Assembly: GCA_947455705.1 (NCBI GenBank)
Contig: CANGPO010000008.1
Span: 1-58,747 of the forward strand
Origin: Actinomycetota bacterium
GTDB lineage: Bacteria; Actinomycetota; Actinomycetes; S36-B12; CAIYMF01
Direction of reading: 5' to 3'
Length of the DNA stretch: 58,747 nucleotides
Every line of letters begins with the position of its first letter. Position 1 is the stretch's first letter. The translations under genes were made by a program, and so were the position numbers. The notes beneath the pieces were generated by a model. The model ran no database searches. It was given only the letters and a program-made list of their open reading frames with translations, and was not told the DNA's origin. Below, piece by piece: positions 55,438-57,986 of the stretch.

Positions 55438-55443
55438 AGGTTA
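55438..55443 (-). promoter_or_regulatory. -10 TAACCT overlapping the PemK-like stop codon
   Basis: On the minus strand TAACCT, 6 nt, ATG at 55431. The TAA is the stop of the upstream PemK-like gene. The 6 nt contain no convincing Shine-Dalgarno. Confidence 0.45.
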
Positions 55444-55971
55444 CTGCTTCGGACGCAGTCGATCCCACAACCGGGCCAACCACGAACTCGATGCTGCGGT
55501 AGTCGGCGACGTGTTGGTGGGCGCCTGGGTGGTTGCTGGTTTGGTGGGCTTAGCGACACTTCCCGGGCCGCGCACCGCGTGCTCTACAAGTTCGAGGAAG
55601 GTGGCCTTGTCCAGGACACCGCCTTCACGTCTCATCGCATGTTCGGTGACGGCCAGAGGGCGATCAATGCGCGCCCAACTGGGCCTGCGTTCAGAGTCCC
55701 AGCCACCCGTTCCTACTGGATGCCAATTGCGATCGTCATCGTGGTCTTTGCTCGACAACATGAGACAGACCAACGTCTCTGGCTTGCCTACCTCGCGGCC
55801 GATGACAATCAACGGCCGATCTTTGCCTTGGGAGTGATCCTCCTCGAAGGGGACCCACGCCCACACAACTTCGCCAGGATCCGGATCGCCATCGCGGTGC
55901 GGTGCGTAATCGGGCTCGAGTCGGCCACGGAAGTCGACGGCTCCGCCGCGTTCTGGAATAGGAACGGTCAC
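55441..55971 (-). CDS. PemK/MazF-like family protein
   Basis: A 176-residue protein with the actinobacterial PemK-like fold: DPGEVVWAWVPFEEDHSQGK, KDRPLIVIGREV, VCLMLSSKDHDD and RPSWARIDRPLAV. MazF/PemK relatives are RNases, but this longer chromosomal subfamily usually lacks an antitoxin, as here. A Thr/Pro/Ser-rich tail (~135-160) leads to WLARLWDRLRPK, an amphipathic end that may bind membrane. The GTG at 55971 is chosen because TACTGT lies 6 nt upstream and the family start fits; upstream in-frame codons are unlikely. Toxicity is doubtful. Confidence 0.82.
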   Translation of the reverse strand: MTVPIPERGGAVDFRGRLEPDYAPHRDGDPDPGEVVWAWVPFEEDHSQGKDRPLIVIGREVGKPETLVCLMLSSKDHDDDRNWHPVGTGGWDSERRPSWARIDRPLAVTEHAMRREGGVLDKATFLELVEHAVRGPGSVAKPTKPATTQAPTNTSPTTAASSSWLARLWDRLRPKQ

Positions 55972-55977
55972 GGCAAA

Positions 55978-55983
55978 ACAGTA
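55978..55983 (-). promoter_or_regulatory. -10 TACTGT, leaderless PemK-like start
   Basis: On the minus strand TACTGT, 6 nt, GTG at 55971; no Shine-Dalgarno. Confidence 0.45.
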
Positions 55984-56057
55984 GGTGAAAGCAGTGAGCG
56001 GCGTCACCGTGTCGTGTCATCACTTCGTGGAAACGATGCGGCATCCTAGGAAAAGTT

Positions 56058-56092
56058 GAAGGCCCCTCCGTGTATGAAACGGAGGGGCCTTC
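56058..56092 (-). terminator. Strong intrinsic terminator
   Basis: Perfect 14-bp stem: GAAGGCCCCTCCGT (56058-56071) with ACGGAGGGGCCTTC (56079-56092), 7-nt loop. On the minus strand it is followed by AACTTTTCC. It lies 65 bp after the non-coding, GNAA-rich segment and about 87 bp before the PemK-like start, so something is transcribed on the minus strand through 56100-56560. Confidence 0.8.
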
Positions 56093-56100
56093 GTGCACAT

Positions 56101-56560
56101 CAGCGTTGTTGATTCGGGTTTCCCCACCTCACCAGTCTGACGTGCTGCACTGTGTTCCCGCTCGACCCGATCGGCTCACGGTCTCCCGGTTGCCGCTCGT
56201 GGAGTTGCCTCCCGGCCGTGCAGTCCTATCAGTGCGTGCGTCCGAATCTCGATCCAACGCGACTGTTCTGGGTTTCCCGTTCCCATTCGCTGGGGTTGCC
56301 CCCGGACCGTCAATCCGTTCGCTCCCACCGGCTCGTCGGTTTGCGCTCACAGACGTCAGATTGGTTGCCCGCTCTGTCGTCAGCCGAGGGTGGCCTCGGC
56401 AAGTGCATTCCATCGTTCTCGGTGGCGCCTAGACATCCATCGGATCTTCGGAGTCCGCGGCTACGAGTTTCTGGTTTCCCAGATCCCGTCGCAGGGATTG
56501 TCTCCATCGATCCGCCGATCGTTCTTGGCGTGAGAGAGTTCTAACGCTGTTTGCCCCACG
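56101..56560 (-). ncRNA. Candidate structured non-coding RNA
   Basis: No convincing protein in either strand across ~460 bp. The minus strand is dense in short stems capped by GNAA-type loops: CTGGGAAACCAG (near 56480), GGGCAACC (56370), GGGGCAACCCC (56302), GGGAAACCC (56278), GAGGCAACTC (56211), GCGGCAACCG (56196) and GGGGAAACCC (56124). It also has GCCGAGG(N4)CCTCGGC (56400-56383) and ATCCC/GGGAT (56498-56483). AAC cores between 56366 and 56274 recur every 22-25 nt. A strong terminator follows on the same strand. It lacks RNase P and tmRNA landmarks. An alternative is a decayed gene. Ends are approximate. Confidence 0.4.
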
Positions 56561-56632
56561 GGCACAAGGGGTTTGGCAAAAGTCTTTCGTGATTTTTCGA
56601 AGTATTTTTTGCATGCACATGATGTGCACATG

Positions 56633-56685
56633 TTGTCCGCCGAATAGGCGAACTCATCCCCATGTTGTCCCCAGACTTATACACA
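56633..56685. promoter_or_regulatory. Cluster of DnaA-box-like 9-mers beside an AT-rich tract
   Basis: On the plus strand, all in one orientation: TTGTCCGCC (56633), TCATCCCCA (56654), TTGTCCCCA (56665) and TTATACACA (56677). The last fits the TTATNCACA DnaA-box consensus; the others are 2-3 changes away from TTGTCCACA or TTATCCACA. Start-to-start distances are 21, 11 and 12 bp, close to helical repeats. An AT-rich tract (56581-56610) and the dyad GCACAT-G-ATGTGC precede it. It may bind DnaA (titration, gene control) or be a relic origin; no dnaA or dnaN gene is near. Confidence 0.45.
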
Positions 56686-56901: not shown

Positions 56902-57933
56902 TTAGGGTGCCGATGGCGTACGCGGTGGGTAATGCAGTCCAATTTGCCGACCGACTTCATCGATCGTTTCCAGGATGGAAATCGTTTGTGCGAGAGGAAG
57001 AATTGGCGATTCGGTCAGCCCCAAACGCAAGCATCGTCCGACCTCGGCAGCTTGATGGCGAAGACCATTACCAACGTGGGGGATCTCAATGCGCTCGCGT
57101 TCGCCGGTTCCGGCTGTGACGACGGTGAAGGACGTGGGTCGGAAAAACTCTGGCTCGATTTCAATGCGGCCCAGAGTTCCCGTCACATTCGCGCCATTGG
57201 GGGTGCCGGCGAGCATGGTGGTGTTCACAATGGCGTGAGCTCCAGACTCGTGACGCAGGATCACTGATGTCGTCACGTCCACGCCGCCGTCTGACAAATC
57301 TGCTGAGGCGATGATCTCGCTTGGCTGGCCCAACAACATGGCGGAGAACGAAATCGGATATATGCCAATATCGAGTAGGGCGCCGCCACCCTCGTCAAGA
57401 ATGAACGCGCGTGGGCTCTCGTCGCCGAACTGCTCTCCGAATTCCGCTGTGACAGTGATGATGTCGCCGATACGTCCTGACTCAATCACCTCGCGGATCC
57501 GAACAATGTGCGGCAGGAACCTCGTCCACATTGCCTCCATGAGGAAGGTGCCGCGTGCTCGGGCTGCCTCAGCAAGGAGCCGTGAGTCAGCGGCATTCAT
57601 GGTGAAGGGCTTCTCGACCAGAACTGCCTTGCCTGCCTCGATCGCTAGCATCGCTGCATCGAAATGATGTGGATGGGGCGTTGCGACGTAGACGACGTCA
57701 ACATCCGGGTCGTTGACGACGTCGGCGTACGAATCGTGACGATGGGGGATGTTGAATCGGTCTGCGAATTCGGTGTTGGTGCCCGACTTTCGAGCGCCGA
57801 CTGCGACAACGGCGTGATCGGGAAGATGCGCCAGATCAGAGCAAAACTCTGCCGCGATACCCCCTGCTCCGATGACGCCCCATCGAATGGTTTTGTAGCG
57901 GTCGCGCGTCGCGGACGTCAGGTCAGAGTTCAT
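56902..57933 (-). CDS. Gfo/Idh/MocA family oxidoreductase
   Basis: A 343-residue NAD(P)-dependent dehydrogenase. Rossmann loop GVIGAGGIAAEF (~19-30), VYVATPHPHHFDAAMLAIEAG, the EKPF catalytic Lys motif and a C-terminal alpha/beta domain with GGGALLDIGIYPISF. Closest in style to trans-dihydrodiol or sugar dehydrogenases; substrate open. The ATG at 57933 has TTAGAT 6 nt upstream (a weaker -10) and GGGAAC directly before it. Longer in-frame extension upstream has no family similarity. It lies 53 bp after the pirin gene on the same strand. Confidence 0.9.
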   Translation of the reverse strand: MNSDLTSATRDRYKTIRWGVIGAGGIAAEFCSDLAHLPDHAVVAVGARKSGTNTEFADRFNIPHRHDSYADVVNDPDVDVVYVATPHPHHFDAAMLAIEAGKAVLVEKPFTMNAADSRLLAEAARARGTFLMEAMWTRFLPHIVRIREVIESGRIGDIITVTAEFGEQFGDESPRAFILDEGGGALLDIGIYPISFSAMLLGQPSEIIASADLSDGGVDVTTSVILRHESGAHAIVNTTMLAGTPNGANVTGTLGRIEIEPEFFRPTSFTVVTAGTGERERIEIPHVGNGLRHQAAEVGRCLRLGLTESPILPLAQTISILETIDEVGRQIGLHYPPRTPSAP

Positions 57934-57986
57934 GTTCCCATCTAACCGCTCGGGCAGACAGATACGAACACATCGAAAAAGGTGGT

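Follow-up and report, generated by a model that had tools for sequence, protein, structure and literature searches.

A candidate new family of structured non-coding RNA in Actinomycetes, transcribed from beside a row of DnaA-box-like repeats

We describe a structured non-coding RNA gene on the minus strand of a 58,747-nucleotide stretch of DNA from an Actinomycetota bacterium (hereafter the window, meaning that whole stretch), with a predicted transcript running from about position 56531 to position 56058. The gene plan is fixed: helically phased DnaA-box-like repeats come first, then a promoter-like element, then the GNRA-capped hairpins that form the body, and last a terminator hairpin. The RNA most likely represents a new family with DnaA-responsive transcription, and the placement of the promoter beside a row of DnaA-box-like repeats hints that the RNA is tied to the replication cycle. 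On balance we lean towards a fuller reading: these large structured RNAs form a new non-coding family, DnaA tunes their transcription, and they serve in trans as multivalent scaffolds or sponges.

Fold, ends and coding potential of the window RNA

A preliminary description of this DNA, made from its letters, had proposed a novel ornate non-coding RNA on the minus strand at 56101-56560. That proposal is supported by the fold relative to shuffled sequences, by covariation among relatives and by the lack of a credible match in Rfam 15. The minus strand of the interval folded at -195.8 kcal/mol (z -5.31), with none of 100 shuffles equally good, against z -2.07 and 2 equally good shuffles for the plus strand, so the strand had been called correctly. 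The ends had been placed less well. The interval does fall on the predicted RNA, but it takes in part of the promoter (56537-56560) and omits the terminator, and the RNA more likely spans the coordinates given in Table 1. When the terminator was removed, the remaining body gave z -7.2 (antisense -1.6). The promoter, the DnaA-box-like array and a second copy of the gene, all three absent from the preliminary description, turned up in the present analysis.

The predicted fold is made of many short hairpins, with no single long hairpin carrying a central bubble. The stems with GAAA or GCAA loops that had been pointed out on the minus strand were recovered, as four GNRA hairpins with stems of at least 4 bp where 0.3 were expected. 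In the single-sequence fold, the hairpin at the 5' end competes with an alternative pairing. Two finer details of the preliminary description fared less well. A regular beat of AAC cores corresponds to an excess, both of the triplet (17 against 9.9 expected) and of pairs 22-25 nt apart (4 against 0.83 expected; 7 of 1000 shuffles were as high), but it is weak and was noticed post hoc. The letters of a proposed long-range pair between CACGG (56220) and CCGTG are present, but in the minimum-energy fold CACGG is instead paired with 56161-56165, which leaves the proposed pair unsupported.

Table 1. Predicted features of the RNA gene and its surroundings (positions in the window)
Feature	Position	Strand	Remarks
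Structured non-coding RNA gene	56058..56531	-	About 474 nt; 5' end predicted from the -10 element, 3' end from the terminator hairpin
Promoter-like element, AAACCCCTTGTGC-N18-TAGAACT	56537..56574	-	TTGTGC at 56567-56562, TAGAACT at 56543-56537
DnaA-box-like 9-mer array upstream of the promoter	56622..56685	-	Five boxes, imperfect relative to TGTGGA[CT]AA
Boxes with 1 mismatch each	56685-56677, 56673-56665	-	
Boxes with 2 mismatches each	56662-56654, 56641-56633, 56630-56622	-	
5' hairpin, CGCC-AAGAACGATC-GGCG	56513..56530	-	Four inner pairs in 6/6 window-type sequences; outer pairs vary
GNRA hairpin TCTGGGAAACCAGA	56470..56483	-	GAAA loop; from the fold; pairing retained through changes in the six-sequence alignment
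GNRA hairpin GGGGGCAACCCC	56292..56303	-	GCAA loop; from the fold; disrupted in some relatives
GNRA hairpin GGAGGCAACTCC	56201..56212	-	GCAA loop; from the fold
Short GNRA hairpin CGGGAGACCG	56179..56188	-	GAGA loop, 3 bp; from the fold
GNRA hairpin TGGGGAAACCCG	56115..56126	-	GAAA loop; from the fold
Terminator hairpin	56058..56092	-	14 perfect pairs; 7-nt loop TTCATAC (56072-56078)
Upstream neighbour, GFO/IDH/MocA oxidoreductase gene	56902..57936	-	Context; relatives at L002, L017
Downstream neighbour, PemK/MazF-like protein gene	55441..56007	-	Context; relatives at L002, L006

The two halves of the promoter-like element, TTGTGC and TAGAACT, are invariant in an alignment of six sequences; the 18-nt spacer between them keeps its length while its letters vary. 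The -10 of this element differs from the canonical TANNNT hexamer. At the other end of the gene, the strong terminator that had been reported downstream proved to be a perfect 14-bp hairpin. Most groups have CTCATAC as its loop; the window has TTCATAC, and CCCTTAC or TGCCTAG occurs in some groups. In 59 terminators chosen by their CTCATAC loop, the closing pairs vary yet stay paired. Because the loop list behind the set of 80 RNAs described below selects for known loops, the strongest hairpin with a 7-nt loop was also taken irrespective of its letters: 31 loci gave CTCATAC 18 times, CCCTTAC 5 times, TGCCTAG 3 times, TTCATAC twice and other loops 3 times, and 8 further locus entries yielded no hairpin.

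The terminator pattern occurred in 67 of 296 genomes and a reversed control pattern in 15, once each. Hairpins with a CTCATAC loop are not exclusive to the family: among 17 listed at loci without a promoter match, 8 appeared member-like by eye and 9 came after other sequence. Terminator-like CTCATAC hairpins following other, mostly coding-looking sequence were seen at L170, L171, L172, L174, L176, L177, L178, L179 and L187. We also observed that the CTCATAC loop resembles an anticodon loop with the anticodon CAU, and that ARAGORN called a pseudo-tRNA-Met at two loci, L004 and L050, overlapping the terminator.

Open reading frames of 94-130 aa are present in the region, and stop-free runs are long, for instance 138 of 138 codons in a GC-rich relative (L017). 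However, of the 28 indels separating the window from its nearest relative, 25 have lengths that would shift a reading frame, and the substitutions are spread evenly over the codon phases (22, 21 and 24). We therefore disfavor a protein reading, in agreement with the preliminary description, which had seen no plausible protein here.

Relatives and copies across the class

A DNA search of 99 related genomes returned one full-length relative (G007, 77%) together with partial ones; in a looser comparison, five loci (L002, L003, L004, L006 and L017) span most of the element. Body-only alignments were scored by alifold against column shuffles, with 150 shuffles per group. The z value was -3.0 for the window type (6 sequences), -9.5 for the second-copy type (7 sequences), -11.0 for the g72-like group (15 sequences) and -15.6 for the f19/f14-like group (13 sequences), with no shuffle equally good in any of these four, and -2.7 for the g74-like group (10 sequences), where 1 of 150 shuffles was equally good. 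Three loci in which the regular expression found no body (L196, L132 and L033) were left out of the column-shuffle sets, L132 being added later by hand, and L055 was left out of one later alignment (A4). A terminator alignment (A6) with wrong stretches at four or more loci was set aside.

Covariation, which the preliminary description had named as a check, is present in the orthologs of the window RNA and in related groups. RNAalifold pairs changed on both sides number 23 of 57 in the window-type alignment, and 23 of 58 and 19 of 36 in two related-group alignments. The covariation term is modest in all three and smallest in the six-sequence window type (-0.44 of -48.2 kcal/mol), and many cells of the alignments are broken. 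Bodies from different groups fail to align with one another; their common descent therefore rests on the promoter, the 5' end, the style of the hairpins and the terminator.

The exact promoter pattern recovered six stretches from GTDB genomes, five from uncultured actinobacteria and one from Nocardioides silvaticus. With a cut-off of E<=0.01, a sequence-only model built from nine sequences (R1) matched 83 of 296 genomes in the class, some of these matches being to the upstream block alone. A larger model, built from 31 sequences (R2), gave matches at E<=0.001 in 90 of 394 genomes, again of the class, and a subset of these matches was inspected. R2 matches fall in 20 family labels besides f9 (the family of G100), in which the single match looks like coding sequence. 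Weak matches were all that f9 gave, in 8 of 201 genomes, and those inspected (L227, L228, L229, L235 and G348, as distinct from G804, G870, G724 and G725) lack a member-like promoter plus terminator. A sample of the phylum, whose make-up is known for the listed rows, gave 2 matching genomes of 296 at E<=1e-4, both of them class members.

A promoter model (R3) was built from 22 sequences that include no member of the window's family, f1; it is not fully independent, as its training sequences had been found with R1. R3 matched the window at E 2.8e-13 and gave 15 matches in 16 loci of the window's family. Within the window's own genome it found exactly two sites at E<=1, that of the window (E 1.3e-11) and a second one (E 4.3e-9). 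In both cases an RNA-like body comes next and then a hairpin of the CTCATAC type. This is one of several genomes with two copies; its second copy lies at C5:54817-54960 (locus L128, G000:C5:51300-58500), with its RNA-like body and CTCATAC hairpin. This copy is flanked by an arginase-family gene and a xanthine/uracil permease gene, and the same permease family also adjoins the second copy in L129 and L131.

The length from promoter to terminator ranges from 137 to 880 nt across one set of members. In addition, a miniature member at about 1513-1640 of L224 (G143:C1) comprises the promoter, a body of ~70 nt with two hairpins and a CTCATAC terminator. The 880-nt member (L032, 2733-3650) has many repeated hairpins, 16 of the GNRA kind against 0.5 expected. 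Promoter and terminator patterns together defined a set of 80 RNAs. Their fold z averaged -4.1 (antisense -1.8), and 64 of the 80 lay below -2. These RNAs hold 225 GNRA hairpins with stems of at least 4 bp (18.6 expected) and 39 UNCG hairpins (5.6 expected).

Within the genus, some neighboring genes are shared: an F420-type gene lies downstream in L002, L003, L004 and L017, the oxidoreductase gene upstream in L002 and L017, and the PemK-like gene is found in L002 and L006. From group to group, the downstream neighbor changes and may be a permease, an ORF of GNAT size, a Pol IV-like gene or others. These differences speak against the RNA being the leader of one particular gene.

The upstream array and a possible role for DnaA

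Upstream of the promoter, the alignment of six sequences shows TGTG and GGGGACAA repeats in a conserved block. The five boxes that the window holds here start 12, 11, 21 and 11 nt from one another; the row has the character of a DnaA-box cluster, that is, of clustered and phased 9-mers near TGTGGA[CT]AA, its boxes carrying 1-2 mismatches. Across the 80 loci, the 110 nt upstream contain 232 DnaA-box-like 9-mers with at most one mismatch against 8.1 expected, a count biased upward because models R1 and R2 contain the block and because the script gave preference to candidate promoters preceded by TGTG; the opening 110 nt of the RNA bodies contain none. Two or more boxes are present at 60 of the 80 loci. 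Spacings between boxes concentrate at 11-12, 20-23, 32-33 and 42-45 nt; of 316 such spacings, 243 lie at or within 1 nt of 11, 22 or 33, or at 44, a count inflated by kinship among the sequences. No box was found at 11 of the 80 loci, members of f6 from the same order included, and control by DnaA is therefore not universal in the family.

In 19 genomes, R1 matched the upstream block without a promoter. In 10 of the 19 genomes the block-only match lies past the DnaA C-terminal domain, 153-731 bp downstream of it; in the other 9 it lies elsewhere. The region just downstream of dnaA is the usual place of oriC. Because more than half of the block-only matches fall beside dnaA, we regard the upstream block as behaving like a DnaA-box cluster. 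A further phased cluster of TGTGGA/TGGGGACAA repeats was observed 24-42 kb from dnaA on the same contig at L212 (G288), L213 (G257) and L214 (G202), and the same at L215 (G108), L216 (G265) and L217 (G207). By eye, it adjoins an apparent MATE-type transporter gene or the gene for ribosomal protein L9, and no member RNA was seen at these six clusters.

From the likeness of the repeats to DnaA boxes, we propose that the initiator DnaA binds the array at 56622-56685 and thereby tunes transcription of the RNA, whose level would then follow replication initiation or growth. The RNA itself may act in trans as a scaffold or sponge, its repeated hairpins holding several copies of one protein. A role of this kind would explain why the number of hairpins and the length of the RNA vary so much among species, and variable hairpin number probably fits a sponge or scaffold better than it fits an enzyme-like fold.

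A more ambitious version would make this the first structured non-coding RNA to take part in controlling replication initiation in bacteria. Through the phased boxes, DnaA would drive or repress the RNA, and the RNA or a protein it holds would feed back, either on replication or on ribosome or RNA-polymerase output; such a circuit would be conserved across many families of Actinomycetes. We offer this version tentatively and consider it rather doubtful.

Alternative readings and comparison with known systems

Searched with the 4227 models of Rfam 15, as the preliminary description had suggested, the window gave no match at gathering score and two sub-threshold matches near the element (E about 1, far under the cut-offs); 20 homologous loci gave none at E<=0.5. 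Membership of GOLLD, ROOL, OLE, HEARO, 6S, RNase P and tmRNA was set aside on the lack of a gathering-score covariance-model match in the window. ARAGORN found no tRNA or tmRNA there either, and the earlier statement that the element is neither RNase P nor tmRNA was right. A separate scan returned one ordinary tRNA. The open-access literature, which was the scope of our search, yielded no paper describing the RNA family.

The main rival reading has RNA polymerase as the partner. The RNA would then be a diverged, strongly transcribed binder of the 6S, Ms1 or CoRP type, acting on core or holoenzyme, which we judge unlikely. Such RNAs do exist in actinobacteria: published accounts describe Ms1 (MTS2823, scr3559) as about 300 nt long (PMC4191392, PMC9130861) and CoRP of Corynebacterium as a structured RNA of 516 nt between tRNA-Gln and tRNA-Glu genes (PMC11077062). 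Like Ms1, the window RNA is a stand-alone structured actinobacterial RNA whose promoter resembles the sigma-A type and whose terminator is intrinsic (PMC4191392, PMC9130861); like CoRP, it is structured, actinobacterial and about 500 nt, a size within the CoRP range (PMC11077062). Ms1 is described as being recognized by a neighboring HAD-IB hydrolase gene, with oxidoreductase among its neighbor words (PMC9130861). An oxidoreductase gene does lie upstream of the window RNA, but the neighbors differ in other groups. In all 10 RNA-bearing genomes considered, the HAD-IB hydrolase gene sits either on a different contig or no less than 449 kb from the RNA (a figure from the single-contig genome G224), the RNA promoter gave chance-level matches only at 11 loci near HAD-IB genes, and no Ms1 gene was identified in these RNA-bearing genomes. 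Ms1 is one long hairpin with a central bubble resembling an open promoter, whereas consensus folds here show several short hairpins, many of them GNRA-capped. The 8 weak matches in f9, of which those inspected are non-members, also count against a polymerase binder. As for CoRP, tRNA-Glu or tRNA-Gln neighbors are absent at all 80 loci; ARAGORN made calls at 9 of the 80, none of them Gln or Glu, and two of the nine overlap the terminator hairpin. The comparison with CoRP covered these tRNA neighbors.

Less probable still is that the DNA site does the work, as a datA-like array that titrates or inactivates DnaA, with transcription away from it setting its occupancy and the RNA accumulating as a stable by-product. 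The phased boxes and the resemblance to oriC would suit such a site, and transcription is reported to affect datA in E. coli (PMC10950094). However, compensatory changes and the excess of GNRA hairpins point to selection on the RNA itself, and members without boxes keep the same RNA plan. The array shares with datA and other DnaA-box clusters its clustered DnaA-box-like repeats away from oriC; unlike them, it precedes a conserved RNA promoter by a constant distance.

Large ornate RNAs such as GOLLD and ROOL are elaborate molecules with many tetraloops. The many GNRA loops of the present RNAs, and variants of up to 880 nt, would allow a cage- or oligomer-forming RNA of this sort, its loops making RNA-RNA contacts, yet we find this improbable: some members are very short, and, unlike GOLLD and ROOL, neither the window RNA nor its 20 relatives matched Rfam at the thresholds given above. 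The window RNA was not found in phage and plasmid records, and one exact terminator pattern, which would miss the window's own loop, had no match in viral contigs. Least credible is a decayed protein gene, or a leader of the PemK/MazF-like gene downstream, given the non-triplet indels and even substitution phases that accompany the long stop-free runs, the strong terminator ahead of the next gene and the different downstream genes of other groups.

If the preferred reading of a DnaA-tuned scaffold or sponge is true, an RNA family outside Rfam 15 and present in 90 of 394 class genomes has been overlooked, and with the array a direct test of the link between replication and an RNA regulator would become possible in cultivated organisms, among them Nocardioides silvaticus, which probably carries two copies. 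The promoter-plus-terminator recipe offers a way to search for the rest of the family. In its way of working, the RNA would resemble the CsrB/RsmZ-type sponges, which consist of repeated short hairpins in variable number. This likeness does not extend to membership: the repeats here are GNRA loops rather than GGA in loops, with no Rfam match. Because no known family accounts for its plan, we count the RNA family as new, set apart from Ms1 by the distant HAD-IB hydrolase gene and by its fold, and from CoRP by the absence of tRNA-Glu or tRNA-Gln neighbors.
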